DNA from: Candidatus Kapaibacterium sp.
Lineage (GTDB): Bacteria > Bacteroidota > Ignavibacteria > Kapaibacteriales > UBA2268
Assembly (NCBI GenBank): GCA_937927515.1
Contig: CALBDO010000002.1
Location: 139,001 to 203,000, forward strand
Length of the DNA: 64,000 nt
Direction: 5' to 3'
Below are positions 7,709 to 50,664 of the stretch, one piece after another. A program made the position numbers and the translations under genes. How positions within the stretch are numbered: the first letter of the stretch is position 1; every line of letters begins with the position of its first letter. The notes below the pieces were generated by a model. The model was not told the DNA's origin, did no database searches, and worked only from the letters and a program-made list of their open reading frames with translations.

Positions 7709-8391
7709 TCTTCACGAAACAGGCGAAGAATATATGCATTTTCATTAAGCCATTTTTCCTTTTCCAAATAGTTTGGTGAATATTTCGCTACAAAATATTT
7801 GAACTGTCTCGAGTGATTTTTGTACACAAGATGAGCCAACTCGTGTATTACAATATGAGCAATAATTTCCCTCGGAAGCAAAACCAATCTCCAGTTCAAA
7901 TTAATAACACCATTTTTACCGCAGGAACCCCACAACCTCTTAGCATTTTTCAACCGAAATCCATTGTAATGCAGGTTCATCACTTCCGCCCAATGGTCAA
8001 GCTCTATTTTTAGGATTTCGCTTGCTTTAACAAGATAAAATTGCATGAGCTTTCGTCTTAAAGTAGTTTTATCCCCAAAGGGTAAGTAAAAAATCTTTTT
8101 CTCGGCATCGATAAGAATTTCATTTTTATTATGTAAAACTATTGAGTAATTTTCACCCAAATAAAGAAGAGTGTCGCCTTCTTTTAAATTCAGATTATTT
8201 ATTTTTTTGTTGTTTTGAAGGACAAATTGACGAGTTCGAACAATCCAATTGAATTTTTTCTGCACAATTTTCTTGATTTCATCCTCCGAGGCATAATATG
8301 GGGCAATCACTATTAAATCCCCATTGTTATCTATTCGAAGACAAATACTTTTCCTGTTGGTGATAATTAACTCTTTAATGACGATTTCCAT
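7705..8391 (-). CDS. YgjP-type (DUF45) zinc metalloprotease family protein
   Basis: Member of the SprT/WSS1-like metallopeptidase group often named M48 or DUF45. The substrate in bacteria is not established; homologues neighbour restriction or housekeeping genes. The 228-residue product has the family motif RLWGSCGK at 152-159, the zinc-binding HELAH at 183-187, and the downstream histidine in NHS at 192-194 as third ligand. I use the ATG at 8391 because the longer reading from 8475 overlaps the glmS 3' end. It sits 37 bases behind glmS and may be transcribed with it. Function beyond a metal-dependent hydrolase is unknown. Confidence 0.85.
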   Translation of the reverse strand: MEIVIKELIITNRKSICLRIDNNGDLIVIAPYYASEDEIKKIVQKKFNWIVRTRQFVLQNNKKINNLNLKEGDTLLYLGENYSIVLHNKNEILIDAEKKIFYLPFGDKTTLRRKLMQFYLVKASEILKIELDHWAEVMNLHYNGFRLKNAKRLWGSCGKNGVINLNWRLVLLPREIIAHIVIHELAHLVYKNHSRQFKYFVAKYSPNYLEKEKWLNENAYILRLFRED

Positions 8392-18068: not shown

Positions 18069-19676
18069 CTACATTCTAAACACACCATACTTCTGGTCTG
18101 GTATCGGAGCATTCAGAGCCATAGAAATTCCAAGAGCAAGAGCATTCCTTGTATCCAGTGGGTCGAGTATACCATCATCCCAAAGTCTTGCGGTGCTATA
18201 ATAAGGGCTAGCCTCGTCCTCGTATTTTTTTATAATTGGTTCACGAATAGCCCTAATTTCCTCCTCGGTCAAGGTTTTGCCTTGTGCTTCGAGTTGACGA
18301 ATCTTGACTGTTGCAAGCACATCTGCAGCTTGTTCGCCACCCATAACCGAAATTCTACCGTGAGGCCACATCCATAGCAAACGTGGATTGTACCCGCGCC
18401 CACACATTGCATAATTTCCAGCACCATACGAACCACCAACGATGACAGTGAACTTTGGCACATCCGCATTTGCAACAGCATGTACCAACTTTGCACCGTC
18501 TTTGGCTATCCCACCATGTTCATACTTCTTGCCAACTATAAACCCAGTTATATTTTGCAGAAAAATCAACGGAATTTTTCGAATTGTACAAAGCTCGATA
18601 AAATGAGCACCTTTTAAACTTGATTCAGAGAATAAAACTCCATTGTTCGCAAGTATTCCAACCGGATAGCCCATAATACGGGCAAAGCAAGTGACAAGGG
18701 TTGTGCCGTATAATTCCTTGAACTCTTGAAATCGGCTACCATCGACGATACGAGCAATTATTTCCCTAATGTCGAAAGGCATTCGAATATTTCGAGGGAT
18801 AATTCCATAAATTTCCTGCGGGTCGTAGTAGGGTTCTTCTGGCTCCTCTCTACCAATATCAAATTTTTCTGAAGTTCCAAGATTCTCTACAATGTTTCGT
18901 GCGATTTGCAAAGCATGTTCATCATTGAGAGCATAATGGTCCGAGACACCAGAGATTTTACAATGCACATCTGCTCCACCCAGTTCTTCGTCGGAGACAA
19001 CCTCGCCTGTTGCAGCTTTTACAAGGGGTGGTCCACCGATGAAAATTGTAGCCTGATTGCGAACCATTATGGTCTCGTCGCTCATTGCAGGGACATATGC
19101 CCCGCCAGCAGTGCAAGAGCCCATAACGACGGCAATCTGTGGAATATTCAATGCGGACATTCGTGCTTGATTGTAAAAAATTCTTCCAAAATGCTCTTTA
19201 TCGGGAAAAGTCTCCGATTGATATGGCAAGAATATCCCTCCCGAGTCAACAAGATAAATACAAGGTAGCCGATTCTGAATAGCAATTTCCTGAGCTCGGA
19301 CGTGTTTTTTAATTGTCATCGGGAAATAGGTTCCACCTTTAACCGTTGCATCGTTTGCAACAATCATACATTCTCGACCCTTTACAACCCCAATTCCAGT
19401 AATTATTCCAGCGCAAGGTGCTTCGTTGTCGTACATATCCCAAGCAGCAAGCGGTGACAACTCGAGAAAAGGAGTATCCGGGTCGCATAGCTTCCGAATT
19501 CGTTCTCTTGGAAGCAGTTTACCACGACTTACATGCTTCTGTCGGGCTTTCTCCGGTCCCCCTTGTTTTACAATTTCCAATCGCTCTCTTAGTTCTTGAA
19601 CTAACCTTAATGAATTTTCGTAGTTCTCTTTGTAATCAGGCGATTTGGTATTTACTTTGCTTTTAAACCTGTTCAT
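18069..19676 (-). CDS. acyl-CoA carboxylase carboxyltransferase subunit, methylcrotonyl-CoA carboxylase beta type
   Basis: Transfers carboxyl from carboxybiotin to an acyl-CoA. The 535-residue product has two crotonase-fold halves: N-terminal [17 protein letters not shown], the oxyanion segment [16 protein letters not shown] and [16 protein letters not shown], and the C-terminal [22 protein letters not shown]. The GGIFLPYQ and [13 protein letters not shown] sequences are typical of MccB (LiuB/AccD1) rather than of PccB, so 3-methylcrotonyl-CoA, a leucine-degradation intermediate, is the likeliest substrate. Geranyl-CoA is an alternative. Last gene of the leftward operon with ACAD, IcmF and a DUF6125-like protein. 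No biotin carboxylase is in the window. Confidence 0.9.
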
Positions 19677-19679
19677 ATT

Positions 19680-20198
19680 TTAATCTTTTAAAATAAATTT
19701 CCATATACAATAATAATCAGAATCGGTAATGTCTGGTGGACACGAAATTACTTCTGTGTCAAAACGATTATCGATGGTTTTTGCAAAAAGCGAATATTCA
19801 ATCAAACCCACAGATTTACAAGGAAAATCTGGGAGATTTTTTCTTCGCCTTGCTTCTTGCACCCTACAAGTTTTAACATAATGCACCAAAGTATTCTTCC
19901 CTTCAACTTTAGAAAATTGTTCATTAATAGTTGAATACAAACGTAAAGCAAGAGCCTTTTTCAAGCCTTCTATTCCCGAACATTCTCCCAAATTCAAGAA
20001 TTCCTTCAAGCGTCTTGCTTCAATTTGAGTAAACTGCCCCCAAGAGTCACGGTCCAATTCAATTGCTTTGTCGATGCCAAGTTTCTTTTCAATTGCAAGG
20101 AACCAACAACCATCGTGTGCCAACCAATTTTTTGCATAAATTTTTAGTAGCTCGAGTAGTTGCTCCCTACTCAATGTTTCAATAATACTTTGTTCCAT
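19680..20198 (-). CDS. DUF6125-like protein of unknown function
   Basis: Cytosolic protein of 172 residues with no signal peptide or membrane segment. It resembles the family databases call DUF6125: an N-terminal helix, the WLAHDGCWFLAIEKKLG block at about 24-40, a central helical part, and a C-terminal part with CRVQEARRRKNLPDFPCKSVG and VISCPPD. The cysteines in those segments and the conserved His-Asp-Gly could bind a metal or act catalytically; this is speculation. It overlaps the IcmF stop by one base and lies 3 bases before the carboxyltransferase gene, so it is built into the acyl-CoA operon. I recall the family from memory only. Confidence 0.7.
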   Translation of the reverse strand: MEQSIIETLSREQLLELLKIYAKNWLAHDGCWFLAIEKKLGIDKAIELDRDSWGQFTQIEARRLKEFLNLGECSGIEGLKKALALRLYSTINEQFSKVEGKNTLVHYVKTCRVQEARRRKNLPDFPCKSVGLIEYSLFAKTIDNRFDTEVISCPPDITDSDYYCIWKFILKD

Positions 20199-23100
20199 TA
20201 CATTCCTCTTCGGTATTTGCCTCCGATATCGTATAGTAGGTGGGTAATTTCACCCATGGTACAATGCTCAACTGCATTGAGCATTTCCTCGAAAATATTA
20301 CCTTTAGATATTGCGACATTTCGCAATCTATCGAGAGCTTCTTGTTTTCTATCTTTGTGTCTTTCCTTGAAGTCGGCTACTTGTTGCAGACGCTCCTCTT
20401 TCTCTTCGATGGAGGCACGAGTAACTTTCATATTGTCGTAATAATTTATGGGATTCTCGTTTAAAAACGTATTTACCCCTATAATTGGATATTCACCAGT
20501 TTCTTTTAATGACTCGTAATACAAAGACTGCTCTTGGATTTTGGAGCGCTGGTATTGAGTTTCCATAGCACCAAGAACACCACCCCTACGAGACAAAGCA
20601 AGGAATTCATCCAACACAGCTTCTTCGACCAAATCTGTCAATTCCTCGATAATAAACGAGCCCTGATTGGGATTTTCGTTTTTCAAAACGCCAAACTCTT
20701 TTGCAAGAATAAGTTGAATAGCCATGGCTCTACGAACCGACTCTTCTGTAGGAGTAGTTATTGCTTCGTCGTAGGAATTTGTATGAAGGGAATTACAATT
20801 GTCGTACATAGCAAGTAGCCCTTGTAGCGTGGTTCTAATGTCGTTAAAATCAATCTCTTGGGCGTGTAGACTTCTTCCAGAGGTTTGGATGTGATATTTT
20901 AATTTTTGACTTCTTTCGTTTGCACCATAAACATATTTCATAGCAATAGCCCAAATCCGACGAGCAACCCGACCAATAACGGAATACTCTGGGTCCATAC
21001 CATTGGAAAAGAAGAAAGAAAGATTAGGAGCAAAGTCATCGACCGGAATGCCACGATTCAAAAAGTATTCTACGTAGGTAAAACCATTTGCAAGTGTAAA
21101 TGCCAATTGGGTAATTGGATTTGCACCTGCCTCCGCAATGTGATAACCACTGATACTTAGAGAATAATAGTTTCTAATCTTATGCTTTGAAAGGTATTCT
21201 TGCACATCACCAATCAAGCGCATCGCAAAGTCGATTGAAAAAATACAAGTATTCTGCCCCTGGTCCTCCTTGAGCATATCTGCTTGAACAGTGCCCCGTA
21301 ATTTTCGGAAGGTTGCAATTTTTAACTCTTCTTTTTCTTCATCGGTAAGTTCTATCCCTTTTGCTTTCAATTTTTCCAACTCACGCTTATAGGCAACAAT
21401 AAAGTAGAACGCAACCATAATGGGTGCAGGGGCATTGATAGTCATCGAAACCGAGGTTAGGGGGTCTGTTTGGTCGAATCCTTGCAAAAGAACATCCATA
21501 TCTTCAACTGTACAAACACTGACCCCACTTTCGCCAATCTTACCGTAAATATCTGGGTCTCTGGCTGGGTCTTCTCCATAGAGAGTCACACCGTCGAAAG
21601 CAACAGAAAGTCGCTTGGCTGGGTCGTTCTTTGTTAAATAGTGAAATCTTTTGTTCGTACGAGCAGGACCGCCCTCGCCGGCAAATTGTCGTTTGGGGTC
21701 CTCTGTTACTCGTTTGAATGGGAAAACGCCAGCAGTATAGGGAAAGTATCCGGGAAGATTTTCTAAATATAAGAATTTCAATAAATTACCCCAATCCTCA
21801 AACTTTGGTAATGCCACCTTTGGTATATTTGTCCCGCAAATAGATTTGTTGTAAAGGTCTATTTCGAGCTCCTTGTCCATAATCTTGTATTTCAACTTAT
21901 CTTGCTGATAAAGGCGCTTACGTTCTTCCCATGTTAAAAGTAATTCTTGAGAATCTTTGGACAATTCCGACCATTTCTTTTGGAAAAGTTCGTTCAATTG
22001 TGTAAGTAACACACCATTTTTATTTTCTTGCTTGAGTACATCCGTAGACTTTTTTAATGAATAAGCTTCCTCGGCAATTTTACTTTGCTCCCTAACCATC
22101 TTTTTGTACTTTCGAACAGTTTCGGCAATTTCGGCAAGATAATTTATCCTCTTGCTGTTAATCAATCCATAATCGCGTTCTAATGTGGTTGGTAGCAAAT
22201 CGATTACTTCCTCTTTTACACCATAATCTCCACCTTTCTTTTCAAGTAAAAGTTTCAACAGAGCTTTGAAAAACTTATTTACCCCGTGATTGTTGAATTG
22301 ATTGCTACTGCAAGCAAAAATGGGTAAATCAAGAGTTTCGAGTGGTACACCACGAGGCACATTCATTTGATGTGTTCGAATGTAATGGATAATAACTTCT
22401 CGGAGAGCATCCTCGGAGCCGATTTTTTCAAACTTATTTATTACAATATAATCTGCCAAGTCGAGCATGTCAATTTTTTCGAGCTGACTCGGAGCCCCAA
22501 ACTCTGCAGTCATAACATACACAGAATAATCGGTAAGAGATTTGATTTGACTATCGCCTTGGCCGATTCCAGGAGTCTCTACAAATATCAAGTCGAAACC
22601 ACATGTTTTAAGCAAATCAATTGAATCCCGTACAAATTGTCCAACATCGCTACCACTGTTTCGAGTAGCAAAACTCCTAAAAAACACTCTGTCGTCGTAA
22701 ATATGATTGTATCTTATCCTATCGCCAAGCAAAGCTCCACCAGTTGTGCTCTTTGTTGGGTCGCTTGCCAGAACAGCAATACTTATCTTTGGGGCATAAG
22801 CAAGGAATCTACCAATAATTTCATCTATTAAAGAACTTTTGCCGCAGCCACCCGGTCCAGTAAAACCAACAACAAGGGATTTACTCTTGTCATAATTGTG
22901 TATCCTCTTTCGTAATTCATCAGCGTCAGCTCGAGTTGATAATTGCTCCTCGATAAAAGTTATTTGCTTGGAGATTAGATAATGGTTTTCGGGACTGTTG
23001 TTTATCAATAATTCATCGGAGATGTCTTTCAACCATTTTGATTGTATTTTAGGTTTGTTCTCATTAATTCTTTTTATGATGTCGTCGGCAATACCATTGA

Positions 23101-23464
23101 TGCCCATTTTTTGGCCATCGACAGCGTGATAAAGCCTTGTCACCCCATATTCTTCCAATGCTTTAATCTCGGAGGGCAGTATAACACCACCACCGCCACC
23201 GAAAATTTGCTTTTCTTCTGCACCATACTTACGAAGTTGGTCCACGAGAAAGCGAAAATATTCATTATGACCACCCTGGTAAGAGCTAATAAGCAAAGCA
23301 TCAACATCTTCCTGAATTGCAACGGTTACAACTTCGCGAACCGAGCGGTTATGCCCAAGATGAATTACTTCTGCACCACGCCTTTGAAGAAGTCTTCGAA
23401 AAAGATTTACAGAAACGTCGTGTCCGTCGAATAAAGCAGTTGCTGTAAGCAATTTTATATTCAT
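20198..23464 (-). CDS. icmF: fused isobutyryl-CoA mutase with GTPase chaperone
   Basis: Adenosylcobalamin enzyme interconverting isobutyryl-CoA and n-butyryl-CoA, with its own repair G-protein. The order in the 1088-residue protein is that of IcmF: a B12-binding domain at about 1-135 (DGHD at 13-16, lower-ligand His15; GLGHNRSV-like segment), a MeaB-like GTPase at about 195-430 (P-loop GPGGCGKSS 203-211, ETPGIGQGD 296-304, NKFE 343-346), a linker, then the substrate-binding TIM barrel from about 565 (PYTAGVFPFKR). Phe580 and Gln736 occupy the positions that are Tyr89 and Arg207 in methylmalonyl-CoA mutase, which favours isobutyryl-CoA over methylmalonyl-CoA. Overlaps the following gene by one base. 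Confidence 0.95.
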   Translation of the reverse strand: MNIKLLTATALFDGHDVSVNLFRRLLQRRGAEVIHLGHNRSVREVVTVAIQEDVDALLISSYQGGHNEYFRFLVDQLRKYGAEEKQIFGGGGGVILPSEIKALEEYGVTRLYHAVDGQKMGINGIADDIIKRINENKPKIQSKWLKDISDELLINNSPENHYLISKQITFIEEQLSTRADADELRKRIHNYDKSKSLVVGFTGPGGCGKSSLIDEIIGRFLAYAPKISIAVLASDPTKSTTGGALLGDRIRYNHIYDDRVFFRSFATRNSGSDVGQFVRDSIDLLKTCGFDLIFVETPGIGQGDSQIKSLTDYSVYVMTAEFGAPSQLEKIDMLDLADYIVINKFEKIGSEDALREVIIHYIRTHQMNVPRGVPLETLDLPIFACSSNQFNNHGVNKFFKALLKLLLEKKGGDYGVKEEVIDLLPTTLERDYGLINSKRINYLAEIAETVRKYKKMVREQSKIAEEAYSLKKSTDVLKQENKNGVLLTQLNELFQKKWSELSKDSQELLLTWEERKRLYQQDKLKYKIMDKELEIDLYNKSICGTNIPKVALPKFEDWGNLLKFLYLENLPGYFPYTAGVFPFKRVTEDPKRQFAGEGGPARTNKRFHYLTKNDPAKRLSVAFDGVTLYGEDPARDPDIYGKIGESGVSVCTVEDMDVLLQGFDQTDPLTSVSMTINAPAPIMVAFYFIVAYKRELEKLKAKGIELTDEEKEELKIATFRKLRGTVQADMLKEDQGQNTCIFSIDFAMRLIGDVQEYLSKHKIRNYYSLSISGYHIAEAGANPITQLAFTLANGFTYVEYFLNRGIPVDDFAPNLSFFFSNGMDPEYSVIGRVARRIWAIAMKYVYGANERSQKLKYHIQTSGRSLHAQEIDFNDIRTTLQGLLAMYDNCNSLHTNSYDEAITTPTEESVRRAMAIQLILAKEFGVLKNENPNQGSFIIEELTDLVEEAVLDEFLALSRRGGVLGAMETQYQRSKIQEQSLYYESLKETGEYPIIGVNTFLNENPINYYDNMKVTRASIEEKEERLQQVADFKERHKDRKQEALDRLRNVAISKGNIFEEMLNAVEHCTMGEITHLLYDIGGKYRRGM

Positions 23465-23490
23465 TTTAAACTTAACAAATGTTCAACAAA

Positions 23491-24630
23491 TCACTTCAAT
23501 AGATGCCGAGCGATAACCAATCTTTGAATTTCGCTGGTGCCCTCGTAAATTTCTGTAATTTTAGCATCACGGTAGTAGCGTTCGACATTGAAATCCTCGG
23601 TGTAGCCGTAACCACCATGTATTTGAATTGCTTTACGAGCAGCATCCATTGCAACCTCGGATGCTTTCAGCTTTGCTAAGGAGGCTTCGGCTGAGTACGG
23701 CAAACCTTTGTCTTTCATAACTGAAGCACGCCAAGTAAGTAGCCAAGCTGCGTTGTATTCCATCCACATATCTGCAAGCATCCACTGTATTGCTTGGAAG
23801 TTTGCAATTGGCTGGTCGAATTGTACACGCTCTTTTGCGTATTTTACAGAGTCCTCTATGCAAGCGCGTGCAATACCAAGAGCTTGAGCTGCTATGCCCA
23901 ATCTACCACCATCGAGGGTTACCATAGCAACTTTAAAGCCCTGGTTCAATTCACCAAGCATATTTTCTTCGGGTACTTCTACATTTTCGAGAATAATCTC
24001 TGCAGTGGACGAGGCACGAATACCAAGTTTCCTTTCCAATTTTCCAATACGATAACCCGGCATATCTTTCTCGACAATAAAGGCACTGACGCCTTTAGTC
24101 TTTTTCCCCGGGTCGGTAGAGGCAATTAATACAAAGACATCAGCTTCGGCACCATTTGTTGCAAACAATTTAGAGCCATTCAAAATCCACTTATTTCCAA
24201 CCTTTGTCGCCGTTGTTTTAGTGTTGCCGGCATCAGAACCTGCCTGGGCTTCCGTAAGAGAAAAGCTACCTATTTTCTTGCCAGAGAGTAGCTCGGGCAG
24301 GTATTTTCTCTTTTGTTCCTCAGTACCAAATCTATAGATTGGGTCGCAGACTAGTGAGGAGTGGGCAGAGATTATTACACCAGTAGAGGCGCACCAGCGC
24401 GAAATCTCCTCAATAGCAAGAAAGTATGAAACAAAATCCATCCCAGCGCCACCATACTCTTGGGGATATGCAATTCCCATCAATCCAAGTTCACCAGCTT
24501 CGCGAATAATCTCCCATGGGAAACGGTGATTACGCTCGTTTTCGCTTGCAACAGGAGCAATTTTTTCCTTTGCAAATTTCGATACCATGTCGCGAAGCAT
24601 CCTCTGTTCTTCTGTCAGTAAATAATCCAT
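23491..24630 (-). CDS. acyl-CoA dehydrogenase
   Basis: FAD flavoenzyme that makes 2,3-enoyl-CoA and passes electrons to ETF. From the ATG at 24630 the product is 379 residues with N-terminal helices, the FAD/substrate segment SLTEAQAGSDAGNTKT, TLDGGRLGIAAQALGIA, IHGGYGYTEDF and EIYEGTSEIQRLVIARHLL, whose Glu is the usual catalytic base. I prefer 24630 because GGAG lies 7 bases upstream; the frame extends to a TTG at 24645. First gene of the leftward operon with icmF. Chain length cannot be deduced; short or branched acyl-CoA fits the neighbours. Confidence 0.93.
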   Translation of the reverse strand: MDYLLTEEQRMLRDMVSKFAKEKIAPVASENERNHRFPWEIIREAGELGLMGIAYPQEYGGAGMDFVSYFLAIEEISRWCASTGVIISAHSSLVCDPIYRFGTEEQKRKYLPELLSGKKIGSFSLTEAQAGSDAGNTKTTATKVGNKWILNGSKLFATNGAEADVFVLIASTDPGKKTKGVSAFIVEKDMPGYRIGKLERKLGIRASSTAEIILENVEVPEENMLGELNQGFKVAMVTLDGGRLGIAAQALGIARACIEDSVKYAKERVQFDQPIANFQAIQWMLADMWMEYNAAWLLTWRASVMKDKGLPYSAEASLAKLKASEVAMDAARKAIQIHGGYGYTEDFNVERYYRDAKITEIYEGTSEIQRLVIARHLLK

Positions 24631-24768
24631 AATATCTCCAAACAATGAAACACAAATTTAATTTGAATAATTAAAAAAATTTTATTAATATTACTTTTTC
24701 AATATATAAAAAAATAAATTAATCAAAAAAGCAGAATTTTCATTATGTATATTATAACCCATTAATTA

Positions 24769-25929
24769 ATGAACAACAAACATAATTTAACAGAAGAGCA
24801 GCAACTACTACGAGAAACAGTCCGTAAATTTGCAGAAGAGGAAATCAAACCGATTGCAAAGGAACTTGATGAAAAAGAACAATTCTCCTACGAGTTGGCA
24901 AAGAAAATGGCAGATTTGGGGTTTTTTGGTTGTTTCCTTCCCGAAAATTATGGCGGGTCCAACCTAGATTACCTTTCCTACATCATAATTGTAGAGGAGC
25001 TTTCCAGGGTAGACAGTTCTCAAGGAGCAACAATTGCAGCACATAATTCACTTGGTGTTGGACCAATATACTACTTTGGCAACGAAGAGCAAAAGAAAAA
25101 GTACTTACCAAAGCTCGCCTCTGGGTATCTCTGGGGCTTCGGTCTCACAGAGCCTGAAGCCGGTAGCGACGCTGGCAACACCAAAACTGTAGCTGTTAAA
25201 TCGGGCAACAAGTGGATAATTAATGGAACAAAAATTTTCATCACTAATGCTTCGACCGACATTACGCTTGGCTCTACTATATTGGCAGTAACTGGAACAC
25301 TGCCAAATGGAAGGAAAGAATACACTTGCTTCCTTGTCGAAAACGGTACCCCCGGATTTACAGCACGACCTATGAAAGACAAAATGATGTGGCGCGCTTC
25401 GAACACAAGCGAACTATTCCTCGAGGACGTCGAAGTGCCAGATGAAAACATTCTTGGCAAGCGAGGCGATGGTTTCAAGCAGATGATGAAAACGCTCGAC
25501 AATGGGCGACTTTCTATCGCTGCAATGGGATTGGGACTTGCTCAAGGTGCATTTGAATATGCATTAAATTACGCAAAGACACGAAAAACCTTCGGACAAC
25601 CAATTTCTACACATCAAGCCATTGCATTTAAACTTGCAGATATGCAAATGCATATCGATTTAGCTCGAACATATCTATACAATGTCTGCCGAATGCTGGA
25701 CAGAAATCATAAAATAACCATGGAATCTGCCATAGCTAAGCTCTATTGTTCCGAAGTTGCTCATTTGTGCGCAAATCATTGTGTTCAAATTCTCGGCGGT
25801 TACGGTTTAATGAAAGAATATGATGCAGAACGCTTTTACCGAGACCAAAAAATCCTTGAAATTGGCGAGGGCACTAGCGAAATTCAAAGGTTGGTCATCG
25901 CTCGCTCTATTGGTTGCTATGATGTCTAG
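24769..25929 (+). CDS. acyl-CoA dehydrogenase
   Basis: Second FAD-dependent acyl-CoA dehydrogenase, 386 residues, divergent from the first across a 138-base gap. Motifs: GLTEPEAGSDAGNTKT, TLDNGRLSIAAMGLGLAQG, ILGGYGLMKEYDAERFYRD and EIGEGTSEIQRLVIARS with the probable base Glu. It is clearly a paralogue of the 23491 gene but differs through much of its length, so the two probably use different acyl chains. The next gene begins 8 bases after its stop, which makes it the head of the HMG-CoA synthase operon. Confidence 0.94.
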   Translation: MNNKHNLTEEQQLLRETVRKFAEEEIKPIAKELDEKEQFSYELAKKMADLGFFGCFLPENYGGSNLDYLSYIIIVEELSRVDSSQGATIAAHNSLGVGPIYYFGNEEQKKKYLPKLASGYLWGFGLTEPEAGSDAGNTKTVAVKSGNKWIINGTKIFITNASTDITLGSTILAVTGTLPNGRKEYTCFLVENGTPGFTARPMKDKMMWRASNTSELFLEDVEVPDENILGKRGDGFKQMMKTLDNGRLSIAAMGLGLAQGAFEYALNYAKTRKTFGQPISTHQAIAFKLADMQMHIDLARTYLYNVCRMLDRNHKITMESAIAKLYCSEVAHLCANHCVQILGGYGLMKEYDAERFYRDQKILEIGEGTSEIQRLVIARSIGCYDV

Positions 25930-25937
25930 GAATTTTT

Positions 25938-26648
25938 ATGGCAATAGATAAATCCTTTATACAAAACTTACCTACAAACCCATTGATGGGCGAAACTAAA
26001 ATTATTGAAGAATATCGAAAACTGGCCGACGAAGCAAACAAAAAAGGGAATAGAGAAACATTTTACGAAGACTTCTTGGATTTATTCAGCCTATATCAAG
26101 TATATGCAGCAAAGCATTCCTTAGATATACTTTTTCCACCACTGACTAATGATAGGAAAATCAACACTGGCATAATAATAAACTTTTTCGAAACAAGACA
26201 AAAAGATATCAATGAACAACTGGAAGATATAATGTCGATGAAAACTCTCCTCGAGAAGAAATCCACATTCGAGACAATGTTGAGAGAAGATGTAACTTAT
26301 CATCTCTCGGACAAGGATTTAAATTCACTCTACCGTAAATTAGATTTATTAATCGATGCAATTAATGATGATTTCGACATCAAAAGAAGCATAAAGACAA
26401 GATTGATTAATCATCTCGGGATACTTAAAAAAGACCTAAAACCAAATATGCATAATTTCGATAGGTTCTGGGCTTTAGTCGGATACACTGGAATTCTTTA
26501 TGGTCTATATGAAGAGAAAGTGATGAAAATACTCGACATGATTAATAGTGTGTTGAATTACATATGGAAAATACAAGCAAAAGCCGAGGGTCTACCTTCG
26601 ACAAATCCAGTGCTTACAATTATATTCAAAGAAATTTCACCAAAATAG
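25938..26648 (+). CDS. uncharacterised helical protein in the HMG-CoA synthase operon
   Basis: I do not recognise this 236-residue protein. It has no signal peptide, membrane helix, cysteine cluster or nucleotide-binding motif. The composition is charged and apparently almost all alpha-helical, with heptad-like stretches around 85-130 (QKDINEQLEDIMSMKTLLEK) and a more hydrophobic C-terminal part (FWALVGYTGILYGLYEEKVM). It lies 8 bases behind an acyl-CoA dehydrogenase and 25 bases before HMG-CoA synthase on the same strand, so it is almost certainly co-transcribed. A structural or accessory role in that pathway is inference. Confidence 0.75.
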   Translation: MAIDKSFIQNLPTNPLMGETKIIEEYRKLADEANKKGNRETFYEDFLDLFSLYQVYAAKHSLDILFPPLTNDRKINTGIIINFFETRQKDINEQLEDIMSMKTLLEKKSTFETMLREDVTYHLSDKDLNSLYRKLDLLIDAINDDFDIKRSIKTRLINHLGILKKDLKPNMHNFDRFWALVGYTGILYGLYEEKVMKILDMINSVLNYIWKIQAKAEGLPSTNPVLTIIFKEISPK

Positions 26649-26673
26649 TATTTTAAACAAATGGAGAACTGAT

Positions 26674-27726
26674 ATGATTGGAATTGTTGGATATGGGGCA
26701 TATGTTCCAAATTACAGAATCAAAAGCTCGACAATAGCCAACCAATGGGGGAACGACCCTGTATCAATCGAAAAAGGGCTATTGTTGGTTGAAAAAACTG
26801 TTCCGGGTATGGACGAGGACACAATCACCATCTCGGTGGCAGCTGCAAAAAATGCATTGAAGCGAGCTCGCATCGACCCACAGAAAATCGGAGCTGTTTA
26901 CATTGGGTCCGAGTCTCATCCTTATGCAGTAAAACCCTCTGGGACTGTCTTAATTGATGCTCTGGGAATTGGACCCCATGTGCATGTTGCCGATTTCGAA
27001 TTTGCCTGTAAAGCCGGAAGCGAGGCTATGTATGTAGCATATAGCCATGTCAAAAGTGGAGAAATGGACTATGCTATGGGAATTGGAGCAGACACCTCGC
27101 AAGGTGCTCCCTCTGATGCTTTAGAATTCAGTGCCTCGGCTGGGGGCTCTGCTTTTATCTTCGGCAGGGAAAATGTCGTGGCAGAAGTTCTTTTCACTCA
27201 CTCTTATACTACCGATACAGCAGACTTCTGGCGTAGAGACCATCAATCCTATCCAAGACACGGCGGGCGATTTACTGGTGAGCCAGCTTACTTCAAACAT
27301 ATTCTCGGTTGTGGTAGGGCTCTGCTCGAAAAATCTGGAATGAAGCCAGAGGATTTCCAATATGCTGTGTTCCATATGCCAAACGGACGATTCCCTCTCA
27401 AAGCCGGAAAAGAACTGGGATTCAAACAAGAACAAATGAACGAAGGTTTAATTGTGCCTATTATGGGAAATACCTACTCTGGTTCTTCTATAACTGGATT
27501 GACAGCTATATTAGATGTTGCCAAGCCTGGGGACAAAATCTTTATGGTCTCTTTTGGTTCTGGTGCAGGAAGCGACGGATTTATATTCCAAGTTACAGAA
27601 AAAATTTCCGAGGTACAAGACTTAGCCCCTAAAACAAGGGATATGTTAAACAATCCAAAGAAAGTCTATTTAGACTACGGCAAATATGTAGTTTATCGAA
27701 GAAAAATTTTATTTAATGAATATTAA
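26674..27726 (+). CDS. archaeal-type hydroxymethylglutaryl-CoA synthase
   Basis: Condenses acetoacetyl-CoA and acetyl-CoA to HMG-CoA, or runs in reverse. The 350-residue thiolase-fold protein has the triad expected for HMG-CoA synthases: Glu80 (GSESHPYAVKPSG), Cys112 (FACKAGSEA) and His234 (VFHMPNGRFP). It has the compact archaeal form, beginning MIGIVGYGAYVPNYRI, rather than the longer Gram-positive MvaS form. The adjacent thiolase and DUF35 genes repeat the archaeal gene order, in which the three proteins form one channelling complex. Here it may serve leucine-type acyl-CoA flux or a mevalonate route; no HMG-CoA reductase is in the window. Confidence 0.92.
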   Translation: MIGIVGYGAYVPNYRIKSSTIANQWGNDPVSIEKGLLLVEKTVPGMDEDTITISVAAAKNALKRARIDPQKIGAVYIGSESHPYAVKPSGTVLIDALGIGPHVHVADFEFACKAGSEAMYVAYSHVKSGEMDYAMGIGADTSQGAPSDALEFSASAGGSAFIFGRENVVAEVLFTHSYTTDTADFWRRDHQSYPRHGGRFTGEPAYFKHILGCGRALLEKSGMKPEDFQYAVFHMPNGRFPLKAGKELGFKQEQMNEGLIVPIMGNTYSGSSITGLTAILDVAKPGDKIFMVSFGSGAGSDGFIFQVTEKISEVQDLAPKTRDMLNNPKKVYLDYGKYVVYRRKILFNEY

Positions 27727-27745
27727 AAAAACAATGAGGTGATAA

Positions 27746-28894
27746 ATGCGTGAAGTAGCAATAATAGGAGTAGGATTGACGAAGTTCGGCGAACTTTGGG
27801 ACCAAAACATTAGAGATATGTTCGCCGAAGCAGCATTGAAAGCTATGGAGAATGCAAAGGTAGAAAAAATCGATGCTTTATATGTTGGGTCTATGTCTAG
27901 CGGTTTGTATGCATATCAGGAGCATCTTGCTTCACTTATGGCAGATTACATAGGGCAAATTGGTGTTCCAGCGGCGCGAATAGAGTCTGCTTGTTCCTCT
28001 GGTGGTCAGGCTGTAAGAATCGGCTATATGGATGTGGCTACTGGAATGCACGATATTGTACTCGTCGGAGGTGTGGAGAAGATGTGGGATGTAGAAGATG
28101 GAACATTTGTACTTGCGACCGCTGCCGACCAAGAATACGAAGTCTACAATGGTGTAACCTTTCCAGGTCTATACGCAATGATTGCAAAGGCTTATATGGA
28201 AAAATATGGTCTCACACGGGAGGAGCTCGCGCAAGTTCCAATCAAAAACCATAAACACGCAGTGAACAATCCCAATGCCCAATATCCTTTCGAAATTGAT
28301 TTAAAAACTGTTTTAAATTCCACAATGGTGGCAGACCCACTCCGATTGATGGACTGCTCGCCTATTACCGATGGTGCTGCTTGTATCATTCTCTGCCCAT
28401 TGGAGCGGGCAAAGGAATTTACAGACAAGTATGTTAAAATACGTGGTGTCGGCGCAGCAACTGGACCAATTGCACTACACGACCACAAAGATTTAACTCG
28501 ATTGGAAGTTGTTCATCTTGCTGCTCAAAGAGCTTATCAAATGGCTGGCGTTGGAGCAGAGGATATCGACTTTGTCGAAGTCCACGATTGTTTCTCCATT
28601 GCAGAAATTGTCGTAGCAGAGGAACTTGGATTTTTTGAATACGGAAAAGGTGGAAAAGCAATTGCCGAAGGACAAGCTACATATGGTGGAAAAGTCGTTA
28701 TAAATCCAAGTGGTGGCTTAAAAGCAAAAGGACATCCAGTCGGTGCAACAGGAGTAGCACAGATAATCGAGGCTTACTATCAATTAACTTATCAAGCCGG
28801 CAAGCGGCAAGTAGAAAACGCTCGCCTGGGAATGACCCAAAATATGGGTGGCTCTGGTGGAAGCTGTGTTGTACATATTTTGGAGGGAATGTAA
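27746..28894 (+). CDS. archaeal/SCP-x-type thiolase (acetyl-CoA C-acyltransferase)
   Basis: Partner of HMG-CoA synthase that makes or cleaves acetoacetyl-CoA. The 382-residue product has nucleophile Cys83 in [11 protein letters not shown], the HDCF motif in [11 protein letters not shown], and [17 protein letters not shown] with the second catalytic histidine. It has the short archaeal form that lacks the long loop of classical bacterial thiolases and usually needs a DUF35 partner. The GGAGGG Shine-Dalgarno of the next gene lies inside its last codons. It starts 19 bases after HMG-CoA synthase. Confidence 0.93.
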
Positions 28895-28895
28895 A

Positions 28896-29288
28896 ATGGC
28901 AAACAGTCAAAGATATACTAGGGAAATACCTCGGCGCTATCGCTTGGAAGCTCAAAAGTTTCCAAGTGGCTTTGTTTCCTTGCCAAGAAGATACGTAGAC
29001 CCTATTTCTGGGAGCAAGGAATACGAAAACATCAAGCTCAAAGGTACTGGCACTATACTTACTTATACCATTATACACGTCACGAGCGACCAATTTAAGT
29101 TTATCACACCCTATGCAGTAGCTATAATCGAAACTGACGAAGGAGCACGAATAACAGCAATGATAACCGACACAAGCTTCGAGGATATCAAAATTGGTGC
29201 TCGAGTGGAATTGGTGTTCCGCAAAATAATGGAGGAAGGGCCAAGCGGAATAGTAAATTACGGATACAAAGCAAAAGTTATTGTTTAG
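28896..29288 (+). CDS. DUF35 OB-fold protein lacking zinc-ribbon cysteines, thiolase/HMG-CoA synthase partner
   Basis: Small acyl-CoA-binding scaffold that, in archaea, bridges thiolase and HMG-CoA synthase and shares a CoA channel. The 130-residue product starts at the ATG at 28896, one base after the thiolase stop, with GGAGGG at 28882-28887. The N-terminal helix, the PRRYVDP turn and the OB-fold (GTILTYTIIHV to C-terminal VNYGYKAKVIV) match DUF35. However, the rubredoxin-like ribbon CxxCG..PPRxxCPxCGS reads KFPSG..PRRYVDPISGS, so all four zinc ligands are replaced. The fold may stand without zinc. A longer frame from 28848 is an overlap artefact. Confidence 0.87.
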   Translation: MANSQRYTREIPRRYRLEAQKFPSGFVSLPRRYVDPISGSKEYENIKLKGTGTILTYTIIHVTSDQFKFITPYAVAIIETDEGARITAMITDTSFEDIKIGARVELVFRKIMEEGPSGIVNYGYKAKVIV

Positions 29289-46103: not shown

Positions 46104-47642
46104 ATGTTAAGACAATTAGTTGACTTCTTTTTTAAGAAGAAAAGGCAAATCGACGAAAGTGAACAAATTGCGAAGGAAAAGCAAAAAAAGCAAGGTAAGC
46201 TAACCGCTCGCGAACGAATCGAAAGAATTGTCGACCCGGGCTCTTTTCATGAATGGGATATGTTTGTCCAGCAAGCTTCAACGGAGTTGGGCCTGGATAA
46301 AAAATTTCTCCCACGCGACGGTGTTATTACCGGAACAGCTAGTATCATGGGGCATCCCATTTGCATCTATGCTCAGGATTTTTCTGTCGCTGGTGGTTCG
46401 CTTGGACTAGCACATGCACGCAAAATCACAAAAATTATGGACCATGCTATTAAACTGGGCATTCCAATCATAGGAATAAACGACAGTGGTGGTGCAAGAA
46501 TCCAAGAAGGTGTTAATTCACTTGCTGGCTATGGAGAAATATTTTATCGAAATACCAAAGCCTCTGGGGTCGTACCACAAATCTCAATCATCCTTGGTCC
46601 CTGTGCTGGGGGTGCAGTTTACTCACCAGCACTTACCGATTTTGTGTTTGTTGTTGATAAAATCTCGAAAATGTTTATCACAGGGCCCGAGGTAATTAAA
46701 ACTGTACTTGGCGAGGAAATATCGATGGAAGAACTTGGAGGCGCGCGAGTCCAAGCAGAAATTGCCGGCAATGCACATTTTTTTGCCGAATCCGAAGAAG
46801 AATGTTTCGAGCAAGTAAAAAAATTAGTCACATTTATTCCTTGGAATAACAAGAAAAAAGCAGACCCATTTCCTCCCAAGCCTCCAAAAGTCGATTACAA
46901 AATTTCTCAAATTATACCCGAGGACCCAAGGCAACCATACGATGCACGCGACGTGATTAAAGCAATTGTCGACGACTCCGACTTCTTGGAAATCATGCCG
47001 CACTTCGCACCCAACGTCGTCATAGGCTTTGCCCGAATGAATGGCGAAACCATAGGAATAGTAGCGAATCAACCATTAGTGCTTGCCGGTGTTCTCGATG
47101 TAGACTCTTCGGACAAAGCAGCTCGTTTCATACGATTTTGTGATGCTTTTAATATCCCTTTACTGACCCTTGTTGATATTCCCGGCTATTTGCCTGGTGT
47201 CGACCAAGAACACTCCGGAGTAATTCGTCACGGGGCAAAAATCCTGTATGCCTACAGCGAGGCGACCGTGCCGAAGATTACTGTTATTATGCGAAAAGCA
47301 TACGGTGGTGGCTACATAGCGATGTGCTCGAGGCATCTCGGGGCAGATTTTGTCTTTGCCTGGCCTATGGCAGAAATCGCCGTTATGGGACCAGAAGGTG
47401 CTGCAAATATCATCTATAAAAACGAGATTGCAAATTCGCCAAACCCAGAAGAAACCCGTAAACAAAAAGTGCAAGAGTACATCGAAAAATTCGCAAATCC
47501 ATTCGTAGCAGCTTCCAATGGCTACATCGATGCGGTGATTGAACCTGATGAAACACGTAAGTACGTGCTGCATTCGCTATTTATATCAAAAAATAAAATG
47601 GAACAGGTTTTGCCTAAAAAACATGGAATTCCTCCATTTTAG
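46104..47642 (+). CDS. propionyl-CoA carboxylase-type carboxyltransferase subunit
   Basis: Carboxyltransferase half of an acyl-CoA carboxylase or methylmalonyl-CoA decarboxylase. The 512-residue product has the two crotonase-like halves: LTARERIERIVDPGSFHE, GINDSGGARIQEGVNSLAGYGEIF and GPCAGGAVYSPALTDF in the N half, and VDIPGYLPGVDQEHSGVIRHGAK, MRKAYGGGYIAMCS in the C half. These wordings are those of PccB/MmdA, so propionyl-CoA/methylmalonyl-CoA is the likely pair. The biotin carrier follows 9 bases later, but no biotin carboxylase and no membrane decarboxylase beta subunit are present, so which direction it works in is open. Confidence 0.92.
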   Translation: MLRQLVDFFFKKKRQIDESEQIAKEKQKKQGKLTARERIERIVDPGSFHEWDMFVQQASTELGLDKKFLPRDGVITGTASIMGHPICIYAQDFSVAGGSLGLAHARKITKIMDHAIKLGIPIIGINDSGGARIQEGVNSLAGYGEIFYRNTKASGVVPQISIILGPCAGGAVYSPALTDFVFVVDKISKMFITGPEVIKTVLGEEISMEELGGARVQAEIAGNAHFFAESEEECFEQVKKLVTFIPWNNKKKADPFPPKPPKVDYKISQIIPEDPRQPYDARDVIKAIVDDSDFLEIMPHFAPNVVIGFARMNGETIGIVANQPLVLAGVLDVDSSDKAARFIRFCDAFNIPLLTLVDIPGYLPGVDQEHSGVIRHGAKILYAYSEATVPKITVIMRKAYGGGYIAMCSRHLGADFVFAWPMAEIAVMGPEGAANIIYKNEIANSPNPEETRKQKVQEYIEKFANPFVAASNGYIDAVIEPDETRKYVLHSLFISKNKMEQVLPKKHGIPPF

Positions 47643-48245: not shown

Positions 48246-48803
48246 TTAAATCAATACAGCAGTGTCCACATTAATTGCATTGTAACCACGCATAAATGCT
48301 TCTTGGTTAAGTGGGATTAACTTGTGATAGCGCTCGGGTAGAACAGATTCCAAGCCTTTCCAGATGGATTCGATTTTCACAACATTTGTAATTTTAATGA
48401 AAGCGCCAAGCATAACCATATTTAGAACTTTTGTATTTTTCAACTCGACAGTAATATCGCCAGCAGGGAGATAATAGATATGTATATCGGACCTTGTTGG
48501 TGGCTTCAGAGTTGTTGTTGTATCGAAAAGAATGTTGCCACCGGGTTTTACTGCTTTTTCAAATTTATCGATGGACGGCTGATTAAGAGCGACTACAGTG
48601 TCGAATTTAGAAATTATAGGGGAGCTAATCATTTCGTCGGAAACAATAGTGATGCAATTGGCAGTGCCACCACGCATTTCTGGTCCATAAGATGGCATCC
48701 AAGTAACTTCTTTACCCTCGAAAATAGCGGCATAGCCAAGTATCATACCCATAGTCAAAACGCCTTGGCCGCCAAAACCAGAGAAAACTGTTTCATGTGT
48801 CAT
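48246..48803 (-). CDS. 2-oxoacid:ferredoxin oxidoreductase gamma subunit
   Basis: Domain III subunit of a ferredoxin-dependent 2-oxoacid dehydrogenase. The 185-residue product begins MTHETVFSGFGGQGVLTMG; GFGGQGV is the family signature, and the SYGPEMRGGTANC block follows. It starts within 4 bases of the beta subunit stop and is the last gene of the four-gene operon delta-alpha-beta-gamma. Substrate preference cannot be read from this subunit. Confidence 0.94.
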   Translation of the reverse strand: MTHETVFSGFGGQGVLTMGMILGYAAIFEGKEVTWMPSYGPEMRGGTANCITIVSDEMISSPIISKFDTVVALNQPSIDKFEKAVKPGGNILFDTTTTLKPPTRSDIHIYYLPAGDITVELKNTKVLNMVMLGAFIKITNVVKIESIWKGLESVLPERYHKLIPLNQEAFMRGYNAINVDTAVLI

Positions 48804-49594
48804 TTTTTAACCTCCGGAACTTTAATATCACCTAAAGGATAGTATGGAATTAAAACATTTTGGACGTAATTATTCGATTCGATTGGAGTCATTTTCCAAT
48901 TGGAGGGACAGTTCGAAACAATTTCGACCAAACAAAATCCTAATCCCATTTTCTGATACTCTAACGCACGCTGTAGTGCTTTTTTTGTTCGACGAACGTT
49001 TTGAACAGTATTGACAGCTTGGCGAGTGACGTAGGCTACTCCTGGCAGTGGGGCAATTAGTTCACCGAATTTCAATGGCCAACCCATAGTCTTTGGGTCT
49101 CTACCGTAAGGCGAGGTTGTTGTGACCATCCCTTCAATAGTAGTCGGAGCCATCTGTCCACTGGTCATTCCATAGACAGCGTTATTTATAAATATAACGA
49201 GGAAGTTTTCACCACGGTTTGCAGCGTGGAGGGTTTCGTTTCCACCTATGGCTGCCAAGTCGCCATCACCTTGGTAAGTAAAAACAAATTTATCCGGCAG
49301 CATCCTTTTGATTCCTGTTGCAACAGCACAAGCCCTACCATGAGCGGCTTGTTGCATATCTACATCCATATAATTGTAAGCAAAGACGGCGCAACCTACG
49401 GGAGCAACCCCAATTATATCATTTTGAATTCCCATCTCTTCGACCACTTCCATGAATATCTTGTGTACAGTGCTATGTCCACAGCCGGGACAATAATGTA
49501 ATTCGACATCAAGCAAGGTCGAAGGTCTTCTATACACTAGATTTTCTGGTTTTACAACATCTTCTACCAAAACATCAACATTATCCACTGCCAT
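48800..49594 (-). CDS. 2-oxoacid:ferredoxin oxidoreductase beta subunit (TPP-binding)
   Basis: Binds thiamine pyrophosphate and probably a [4Fe-4S] cluster. The 264-residue product has HYCPGCGHSTVHKI near residues 32-45 and the TPP motif YQGDGDLAAIGGNETLHAANRGENFLVIFINNAVYGMTSGQ. It has the two-domain length of Kor/Vor-type beta subunits. It overlaps gamma by 4 bases and starts 2 bases after alpha. Confidence 0.94.
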   Translation of the reverse strand: MAVDNVDVLVEDVVKPENLVYRRPSTLLDVELHYCPGCGHSTVHKIFMEVVEEMGIQNDIIGVAPVGCAVFAYNYMDVDMQQAAHGRACAVATGIKRMLPDKFVFTYQGDGDLAAIGGNETLHAANRGENFLVIFINNAVYGMTSGQMAPTTIEGMVTTTSPYGRDPKTMGWPLKFGELIAPLPGVAYVTRQAVNTVQNVRRTKKALQRALEYQKMGLGFCLVEIVSNCPSNWKMTPIESNNYVQNVLIPYYPLGDIKVPEVKK

Positions 49595-49596
49595 TG

Positions 49597-50664
49597 CTAT
49601 TCTCCTTTAATAAACATTTTTTCAAAGTTTTCCAAGATTTCCTCTGGAGTTGGAACAACTCCTCCCATTCTACCATAAAATTCAACACGGGTGGCACCAG
49701 AGACGGCAAGTTTTACATCTTCGACCATCTGTCCAGAATTCATTTCTATATCGAGTATTCCTTTGACTCTTTGTGCAACTTCGGCGAAAATCTTAGTTGG
49801 GAATGGGAACAGTGTTATGGGGCGAATCCAACCTATTTTGTATCCTCTCTGCCTTCCCAAATCCATTGCCTTCATTGCTATGCGAGAGACCAAACCGAAT
49901 GCTGTAAAAATGTATTCGGCATCATCCAAATTCTTGGTCTGATAACGAACTTCCTCCTCTTGCATTTGTTTGTATTTTCTTTGCAATCTTAGATTAATCT
50001 CCTCCATTTTCTCTGGTTGTATGTGCAAAGAGGTAATTACCCGTCTTTCACCGTTCTTTGGTTTACCCGTAGTAGCCCAGGGGTATTCAATGTGGACTCT
50101 TTGTTCCTGGGGCGGGAGTTCAACCTTTTCCATCATTTGACCCAAAGCACCATCGGCAAGTATCATTACGGGATTTCTATATTTAAAAGCAAGTTCAAAG
50201 CCAAGTTTGACAAAATCAGCCATCTCCTGAACATTGTACGGTGCAAGTACAAGCAAGCGATAGTCGCCGTGACCACCTCCCTTGACGGCTTGGAAGTAAT
50301 CGCCTTGGGCTGGTTGAATAGTGCCAAGCCCCGGACCACCACGATTAATATTAGCCAATAGACAAGGTAATTCAGCACTGGCAATGTAGGACAAACCTTC
50401 TTGCATCAAGCTAATTCCAGGACTGGAGGAGGTTGTCATTGCTTTTTTTCCACAGCCTGCAGCACCATATATCATATTAATTGCAGCAACTTCGCTTTCC
50501 GCTTGGAGGACAACCATACCAGTACGTTTTGTAGCTTCACGAGAAAGATACTCTATTACCTCTGATTGTGGAGTAATAGGATAACCAAAATATGCATCGA
50601 CACCAGCACGAATTGCAGCCTCTGCCAATGCTTCATTGCCTTTCATTAATTTGACTTCCCCCAT
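49597..50664 (-). CDS. 2-oxoacid:ferredoxin oxidoreductase alpha subunit, VorB/KorA-like
   Basis: Pyrimidine-binding half of the TPP site. The 355-residue product begins MGEVKLMKGNEALAEAAIRAGVDAYFGYPITPQSEVIEYLS. KGNEA...YPITPQSE is the signature shared by VorB (2-ketoisovalerate) and KorA (2-oxoglutarate). The lack of a fused gamma domain and the separate ferredoxin gene match the four-subunit VOR form. A branched-chain 2-oxoacid would suit the neighbouring acyl-CoA genes, but 2-oxoglutarate in a reductive or oxidative TCA step is an alternative. Confidence 0.92.
   Translation of the reverse strand: MGEVKLMKGNEALAEAAIRAGVDAYFGYPITPQSEVIEYLSREATKRTGMVVLQAESEVAAINMIYGAAGCGKKAMTTSSSPGISLMQEGLSYIASAELPCLLANINRGGPGLGTIQPAQGDYFQAVKGGGHGDYRLLVLAPYNVQEMADFVKLGFELAFKYRNPVMILADGALGQMMEKVELPPQEQRVHIEYPWATTGKPKNGERRVITSLHIQPEKMEEINLRLQRKYKQMQEEEVRYQTKNLDDAEYIFTAFGLVSRIAMKAMDLGRQRGYKIGWIRPITLFPFPTKIFAEVAQRVKGILDIEMNSGQMVEDVKLAVSGATRVEFYGRMGGVVPTPEEILENFEKMFIKGE

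Follow-up and report, generated by a model that had tools for sequence, protein, structure and literature searches.

A divergent acyl-CoA locus in Candidatus Kapaibacterium sp. that may end leucine breakdown with a reversed archaeal-type HMG-CoA synthase

Gene content and conservation of the locus

We analysed a window of 64,000 nucleotides (contig CALBDO010000002.1, positions 139,001 to 203,000) from a Candidatus Kapaibacterium sp. genome (2,389,372 bases in 41 contigs, 98.27% complete), in which a divergent locus brings together the fused isobutyryl-CoA mutase IcmF, a carboxyltransferase of the methylcrotonyl-CoA carboxylase (MCC) type, two acyl-CoA dehydrogenases and an archaeal-type 3-hydroxy-3-methylglutaryl-CoA (HMG-CoA) synthase (HMGS) with thiolase and DUF35 partners. 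With moderate confidence, we read it as a branched-chain acyl-CoA catabolic locus in which leucine would be broken down without HMG-CoA lyase, by way of a reversed HMGS complex. Locus coordinates are counted within the window; the labels L, G and C denote loci, genomes and contigs of this genome, respectively. The features are:

18069..19676, minus strand: MCC-type carboxyltransferase beta subunit, 535 aa (PDB phmmer)
19680..20198, minus strand: DUF6125 protein, 172 aa (PF19620, 247 bits; kept in L016-L019)
20198..23464, minus strand: IcmF, fused isobutyryl-CoA mutase/GTPase, 1088 aa (NF045497, 1589 bits, cut-off 1500)
23491..24645, minus strand: acyl-CoA dehydrogenase 1, butyryl/short-chain type (PDB: 5ol2 452 bits; short-chain acyl-CoA dehydrogenase, SCAD, 1jqi 411; isovaleryl-CoA dehydrogenase, IVD, 1ivh 285)
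24646..24768, no strand: divergent intergenic region between the arms, 123 bp, computed gap
24769..25929, plus strand: acyl-CoA dehydrogenase 2, candidate branched-chain acyl-CoA dehydrogenase (7szv 382 bits, SCAD 1jqi 315, IVD 1ivh 277)
25938..26648, plus strand: family-less open reading frame (ORF), 236 aa, lying between dehydrogenase 2 and HMGS and found at the corresponding position in four relatives
26674..27726, plus strand: archaeal-type HMGS, 350 aa (TIGR00748, 513 bits, cut-off 353)
27746..28894, plus strand: acetoacetyl-CoA thiolase-type partner, 382 aa (PRK06064, 533 bits, cut-off 420)
28896..29288, plus strand: DUF35/OB-fold scaffold protein, 130 aa from the ATG (PF01796, 68 bits on the frame from 28848)

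The first-pass annotation had described a tightly packed divergent locus of eight genes plus a DUF6125-like gene, and all nine frames were found in place, eight of them assignable to named families with NCBIfam and Pfam profiles. From the centre outward, the minus arm holds acyl-CoA dehydrogenase 1, IcmF, the DUF6125 protein and the carboxyltransferase, and the plus arm acyl-CoA dehydrogenase 2, the family-less ORF, HMGS, thiolase and DUF35. Within the arms, the listed frames are spaced by -47 to 26 bp; the -47 bp overlap comes from listing the DUF35 frame from 28848, its start being most likely the ATG at 28896, 1 bp past the thiolase. The nine-gene order is whole in four relatives (L016-L019, the carboxyltransferase of L019 running off the contig end), whose HMGS proteins are 87-92% identical to that of the window, and a fifth locus, L020, keeps most of it, minus the DUF6125 gene and the family-less ORF. 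Such recurrence of the whole order indicates that the locus is not a product of chance. L016 lies on a contig of RCNO01 (MS-B_bin-24), which, according to PMC6338057, represents 'Candidatus Thermonerobacter thiotrophicus'.

HMGS, thiolase and DUF35 all belong to the archaeal type. HMGS aligns to 6esq with 436 bits and keeps the stretches around Glu, Cys and His residues (motifs SESHP, EFACKAG and FHMPNG) that we take to have catalytic roles, and the thiolase likewise keeps its catalytic motifs, with a score of 535 bits against NF053570 that lies under the cut-off of 600. The window DUF35 has no cysteine after the ATG and so lacks the zinc-binding cysteines of the archaeal complex; none occur in L017-L019 either, one occurs in L016, some in L020 and L021, and CxxC pairs in L037 and L093. 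In the archaeal complex, as described in PMC12329534, DUF35 joins thiolase to HMGS, and the two enzymes share a CoA site. The window resembles that complex in that the same three families stand side by side with their catalytic motifs kept, but differs from it in the lost DUF35 cysteines, in a genome with no HMG-CoA reductase match, and in the link to MCC.

Among PDB chains compared with phmmer, the carboxyltransferase scores 667-788 bits with those named MCC beta, 471 with geranyl-CoA carboxylase and at most 284 with those named propionyl-CoA carboxylase (PCC) beta, except for its top match, 9tps (808 bits), deposited as 'propionyl CoA carboxylase beta subunit'; that exception aside, the ranking points to the MCC kind and places the protein nearer to beta subunits of MCC than to those of PCC. 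IcmF aligns to the IcmF structure 4xc6 with 1212 bits over residues 3 to 1088 and contains the FAGEG and LKEDQGQN stretches, in which the substrate residues F and Q presumably sit; what sets it apart from a known IcmF is its company, since in the window and in L016-L020 its gene is found together with those of HMGS and MCC beta at one locus. Both dehydrogenases score higher with SCAD than with IVD, and both carry the glutamate of EI.EGTSEIQ (EIGEGTSEIQ in dehydrogenase 2), isovaleryl-CoA dehydrogenase having, we assume, its own catalytic-base position. Isovaleryl-CoA could be a substrate of either locus dehydrogenase. The AlphaFold model of the DUF6125 protein (mean pLDDT 61) was too weak for a structure search, and the family-less ORF matched nothing in NCBIfam or Pfam at E 0.001; its counterparts in L016-L019 are 67-80% identical and were, among the best 80 HMGS loci, seen in those four only, and its predicted structure, mostly helical and of middling confidence, was too uncertain for a structure search.

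The synthase module in other bacteria

We kept the best 80 loci of HMGS relatives (63-92% identical; more exist), in which a thiolase lies downstream of HMGS in 77 and DUF35 in 71. The first-pass annotation had suggested surveying such neighbourhoods in Bacteroidota/Chlorobiota for icmF and MCC beta. MCC beta (at least 60% identity) occurs in 25 of the 80, downstream on the same strand in 20 and in the window's divergent layout in five (L016-L020), with IcmF joining the two in these five loci and the window. Downstream MCC beta was present in 17 of the 51 loci with at least 4 kb past HMGS, and MCC beta, hydratase, biotin carboxylase and carrier all follow HMGS in 12 of the 80. The 20 downstream-MCC loci span eight named groups (Aminicenantes 7; Zixiibacteriota 4; Calditrichota or Caldithrix 2; Coatesbacteria 2; KSB1, WOR-3, Cloacimonadota and Gemmatimonadota 1 each), with one locus carrying no group label; in L076, from a metagenome-assembled genome (MAG) labelled Caldithrix abyssi, MCC beta and the hydratase come after HMGS.

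The neighbours of the HMGS-MCC operons are catabolic. In L093, whose hydratase has PRK07468 and gamma-carboxygeranoyl-CoA hydratase as best models (both under their cut-offs), they comprise a methylmalonyl-CoA-type mutase with a separate B12 subunit, an epimerase, an MmdA/PCC-like carboxyltransferase and an acyl-CoA dehydrogenase, and relatives of this mutase, epimerase and carboxyltransferase occur in L067 and L084, the contig of the latter ending soon past HMGS, out of range for seeing MCC. L067 also encodes a butyrate kinase and a Glu/Leu/Phe/Val-dehydrogenase-family protein (best NCBIfam model tryptophan dehydrogenase, under cut-off) that has a 47% relative in L084, and L037 encodes alanine-dehydrogenase-like and butyryl-CoA:acetate CoA-transferase-like proteins, both under cut-off. 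Acyl-CoA dehydrogenase matches were found in six of the 20 downstream-MCC loci. As a side observation, an acyclic terpene utilization gene, AtuA (PF07287, 350 bits), lies just ahead of HMGS in L012:2-940, with relatives in L035 (59%) and L046 (48%).

For genome-wide cross-checks, 51 HMGS genomes were searched, namely this genome and those of 50 of the 80 loci, hand-picked to span groups; nearly all records are MAGs, so that single absences are soft. MCC beta of at least 60% identity is present in 40 of them (in two split over contigs). HMG-CoA reductase scores over cut-off in eight (seven over 250 bits, one at 52 bits) and is missing from 43, this genome included. HMG-CoA-lyase-family genes score over cut-off in 11, and CitE-like lyases in 22, so a CitE-like ending could serve some of these genomes.

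Lyase, carboxylase and hydratase genes elsewhere in the genome

The statement made at first pass that HMG-CoA lyase and methylglutaconyl-CoA hydratase are absent holds for the locus; the genome as a whole has one HMG-CoA-lyase-family gene and two enoyl-CoA-hydratase (ECH)-family genes. The single HMG-CoA-lyase-family gene, found with NF004283 (287 bits, cut-off 246), lies on contig C8 (L111:9373-10266) in a conserved row (L111:8224-13259) that runs isopropylmalate/isocitrate-dehydrogenase-like, lyase, CaiB-family CoA-transferase, LeuC, LeuD. At the ten lyase loci over cut-off (L096-L105, our genome's being L099), CaiB adjoins the lyase in nine, ours included, and the isopropylmalate/isocitrate-dehydrogenase-like gene does so too in seven of those nine; L096 has neither. 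Counted over the 51 genomes, ten of the 11 lyases thus have a citramalate-type context (nine read at the loci, that of G228 by L150, which has the same place and score), and the eleventh, L096, belongs to a genome without MCC beta at 60%. Three matches are weaker, namely L158 (63% identical to our lyase), L159 (62.5%, beside the isopropylmalate/isocitrate-dehydrogenase-like gene) and the divergent L157 (G230).

In a sample of 198 genomes of the phylum, HMGS was found in nine and lyase-family genes over cut-off in 24 (27 at 1e-60), the four HMGS genomes among the lyase carriers (our own, G055, G160 and G172) all having the citramalate type; so few of the sampled genomes carry a typical lyase that a count of zero among the nine HMGS genomes is not significant. 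At L136, L139, L144, L145 and L146 the lyase has the isopropylmalate/isocitrate-dehydrogenase-like gene, CaiB and LeuC as neighbours, and at L150 it has CaiB, these six lyases being 50-57% identical to ours. The other 20 are 26-39% identical, except L148 (53%, no CaiB found), and at three of these 20 (L138, L141, L143) a distant LeuC adjoins the lyase, with a distant CaiB further away. Evolutionarily, in a tree of 27 lyases (ours and those of 26 of 37 loci, the other 11 being dropped where the lyase frame was not picked), 11 operon-type rows form a grade with L148, apart from ten typical rows (branch support 93/85) and five divergent ones. Queries for MCC, biotin carboxylase and dehydrogenase found no such neighbours at the citramalate-type lyase loci. 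Separately, a divergent HMG-CoA-lyase-like protein (L155:6312-7046) groups with L153, L154, L156 and L157; its gene adjoins one for an acyl-CoA dehydrogenase in G196, whose genome belongs to our family and has MCC beta and no HMGS.

We take the citramalyl-CoA lyase and citramalate CoA-transferase of Chloroflexus to belong to the HMG-CoA-lyase and CaiB families. Because the operon around our lyase-family gene is conserved and of the citramalate type, the gene probably encodes a citramalyl-CoA lyase, and the row as a whole would fit an interconversion of acetyl-CoA plus pyruvate, citramalyl-CoA, citramalate, methylmalate and 2-oxobutyrate, running to or from 2-oxobutyrate. R-citramalyl-CoA lyase and succinyl-CoA:citramalate CoA-transferase are among the known enzymes listed in PMC8307300. 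A row of this type invites misannotation, both as HMG-CoA lyase and as a leucine biosynthesis set that lacks leuA, and it could explain the leuCDB-like genes without leuA mentioned in PMC6338057. Given this operon and the position of the gene in the tree, a normal HMG-CoA lyase in this genome was set aside as a candidate.

Leucine could nonetheless be degraded along the classical route if this lyase also cleaved HMG-CoA and HMGS had an unrelated task. Its score against the HMG-CoA lyase model speaks for this idea, and in another family a single enzyme, Rv2498c, acts as lyase on both citramalyl-CoA and HMG-CoA (PMC6689899). We nevertheless regard it as unlikely, since the operon is conserved with the isopropylmalate/isocitrate-dehydrogenase-like gene, CaiB, LeuC and LeuD and showed none of the queried leucine-pathway neighbours, since L018 keeps the whole locus in a genome (a MAG) with no lyase-family match at all, and since a lyase-family match over cut-off occurs in none of the 19 searched genomes with MCC beta downstream of HMGS. 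In seven of these 19 the lyase model matches frames of 409-645 aa at 24-60 bits; we take these for other superfamily members. Of the 19, ten have no lyase, HMG-CoA reductase or CitE-like protein by the limits used.

Of the genome's three biotin carboxylases, L114 stands beside an acetyl-CoA carboxylase (ACC)-type carrier, L113 has no recognised adjacent carrier, and L112 (8359-9861, 500 aa) is accompanied by a 163-aa carrier (7858-8349) on contig C14, not the window contig. The L112 carboxylase shares 60% identity, and its carrier 35%, with their counterparts in the MCC operons of other groups, against 53% and 56% for the other two carboxylases, which makes the L112 pair candidate MCC partners of the locus carboxyltransferase. 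One of the two ECH genes is crotonase-like; the other, L116, is divergent, 23-27% identical to the operon type, and shares the LiuC-like motifs GGG.GL..CD and SE with the operon hydratase. The genome-wide look suggested at first pass for liuC, HMG-CoA lyase, HMG-CoA reductase and MEP genes gave this divergent protein with LiuC-like motifs, one lyase-family gene of citramalate type, no match to HMG-CoA reductase (PF00368), and DXS of the methylerythritol phosphate (MEP) route at 787 bits. Besides IcmF, the genome has two further mutase frames (726 and 685 aa) that resemble the halves of a two-subunit methylmalonyl-CoA mutase, with subunit roles assigned provisionally. PCC/MmdA-like carboxyltransferases, under the model cut-off, lie at window 46104-47642 and on contig C16. 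VorB at window 49597-50664 (540 bits, cut-off 399) counts for a catabolic setting. As further observations, the 2-oxoacid:ferredoxin oxidoreductase with VorB (48800-50664) is, like the carboxyltransferase at 46104-47642, 17-21 kb from the locus, and a tryptophanase-family gene stands directly ahead of the second PCC/MmdA-like carboxyltransferase (L130:7344-10292, contig C16).

Compared with the Liu (leucine/isovalerate utilization) pathway, the window has the MCC-type beta subunit and acyl-CoA dehydrogenases, and the rest of the genome offers candidates for biotin carboxylase, carrier and hydratase; it differs in that the only LiuE-family lyase has a citramalate-type context and HMGS, thiolase and DUF35 stand in its place. 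The R-stereospecific leucine route of M. tuberculosis, as outlined in PMC6689899, similarly does without a LiuE-type TIM-barrel lyase, but uses the CitE-like Rv2498c, and a search for CitE-like lyases (PF03328) gave no match in our genome.

Direction of the pathway and its alternatives

Functionally, isovaleryl-CoA from leucine would be dehydrogenated, carboxylated by MCC (its beta subunit encoded in the locus, its partners on another contig) and hydrated to HMG-CoA, which HMGS would open in reverse, and the resulting acetoacetyl-CoA would be cleaved at once by the DUF35-tethered thiolase, giving in sum HMG-CoA + 2 CoA -> 3 acetyl-CoA + H2O. As no free acetoacetate would form, neither a CoA-transferase nor ATP for re-activation would be called for, a saving of one thioester over HMG-CoA lyase. 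Isobutyryl-CoA from valine would be converted by IcmF to butyryl-CoA, which the short-chain dehydrogenase and beta-oxidation could carry on to acetyl-CoA. Thermodynamically, acetoacetyl-CoA thiolysis pulls and HMGS reversal resists, which should leave the pair near balance; such a reversal would need just what the archaeal complex has, a thiolase and an HMGS that DUF35 binds to each other and that share a CoA site.

The first-pass annotation had offered catabolism and synthesis as opposite readings without choosing. We infer the direction of HMGS from its neighbours and from genes that are missing: the absence of HMG-CoA reductase, the MCC type of the carboxyltransferase and the catabolic genes beside HMGS-MCC operons in other groups favour the catabolic reading. 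With slightly less confidence than for the locus itself, we posit that many uncultured groups use the archaeal-type HMGS/thiolase/DUF35 module in reverse, from HMG-CoA to three acetyl-CoA with the thioesters kept, and that our lineage has joined IcmF to it in a single valine and leucine locus. A search of the open-licence literature found no report of HMGS run in reverse in leucine breakdown. The first-pass annotation had also said that a complete mevalonate pathway needing this HMGS plus an intact classical leucine pathway elsewhere, with an unconserved gene order, would speak against its proposal; no mevalonate pathway was found and the order is conserved in relatives, which leaves the proposal standing.

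In the opposite direction, as in myxobacteria, three acetyl-CoA would be condensed to HMG-CoA, and dehydration, decarboxylation and reduction of this would yield isovaleryl-CoA as a starter for iso-branched fatty acids. HMGS normally runs in the condensing direction. The M. xanthus route, as presented in PMC9636800, joins MvaS, run forward, to Liu-pathway enzymes including a direction-switching LiuC. According to PMC6338057, a near relative probably cannot synthesise valine or isoleucine, and it might therefore benefit from a further supply of branched primers. Unlike the Myxococcus system, however, our locus retains MCC, which spends ATP in the carboxylating direction, and the operon neighbours in other groups (PCC/MmdA-like carboxyltransferase, methylmalonyl-CoA mutase, epimerase, acyl-CoA dehydrogenases, amino-acid dehydrogenase) are catabolic, which makes synthesis, in our judgement, an improbable explanation. 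Mevalonate synthesis, the task of archaeal HMGS and compatible with the eight reductase-bearing HMGS genomes, is highly improbable and was rejected for our genome, since no reductase match was found there and DXS is present.

Several observations weigh against leucine breakdown through reversed HMGS. HMGS reversal is unfavourable by itself, and the operon-type hydratase is not among the two ECH genes of our genome. One genome, G230 (L025), holds HMGS, MCC and a divergent lyase-like gene together, and the 19 operon genomes include six with CitE-like proteins over 100 bits, three with a strong HMG-CoA reductase and one (L075) with the 52-bit match. Of the 51 HMGS genomes, 11 have no MCC beta at 60% (seven labelled Gemmatimonadota, two Acidobacteria) and ten of these also have no reductase, so that the module must have another use somewhere; in a tree of our HMGS and those of 77 of the 80 loci (L050, L087 and L088 left out for a stop in the matched stretch, probably from an over-extended alignment), the deepest split leaves ten of the 11 in one half together with ours. 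The catabolic reading does not explain the Gemmatimonadota with the module but no close MCC: seven loci so labelled (L036, L042, L044, L047, L054, L059 and L066) have HMGS-thiolase-DUF35 and neither MCC beta at 60% nor a reductase match, and six of them come with carboxyltransferases of 42-43% identity. In the phylum sample, MCC beta of at least 69% identity is present in two of the nine HMGS genomes and not in the other seven, and in three genomes with no HMGS (G109, G188, G196), of which G196 alone has lyase-family genes at 1e-60 (two, one beside an acyl-CoA dehydrogenase); since G109 and G188 show no HMGS and no lyase-family gene at that limit, the two enzymes are not simple replacements of each other. 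The MCC control in this sample, run at 1e-170, kept matches of at least 50% identity, 20 of them at 50-54% that may be other acyl-CoA carboxylases, and is a weak one.

If the reversed-HMGS reading is true, the finding would be a variation on leucine degradation and not an entirely new type of system. Leucine breakdown would then have a further possible ending, one that conserves the energy of a thioester, a gain of importance to anaerobes short of energy, and HMGS, known as a synthetic enzyme, would gain a catabolic role in bacteria. It would also explain why archaeal-type HMGS is kept in bacterial genomes without HMG-CoA reductase, and would warn against reading mevalonate synthesis or ketogenesis from an archaeal-type HMGS gene.

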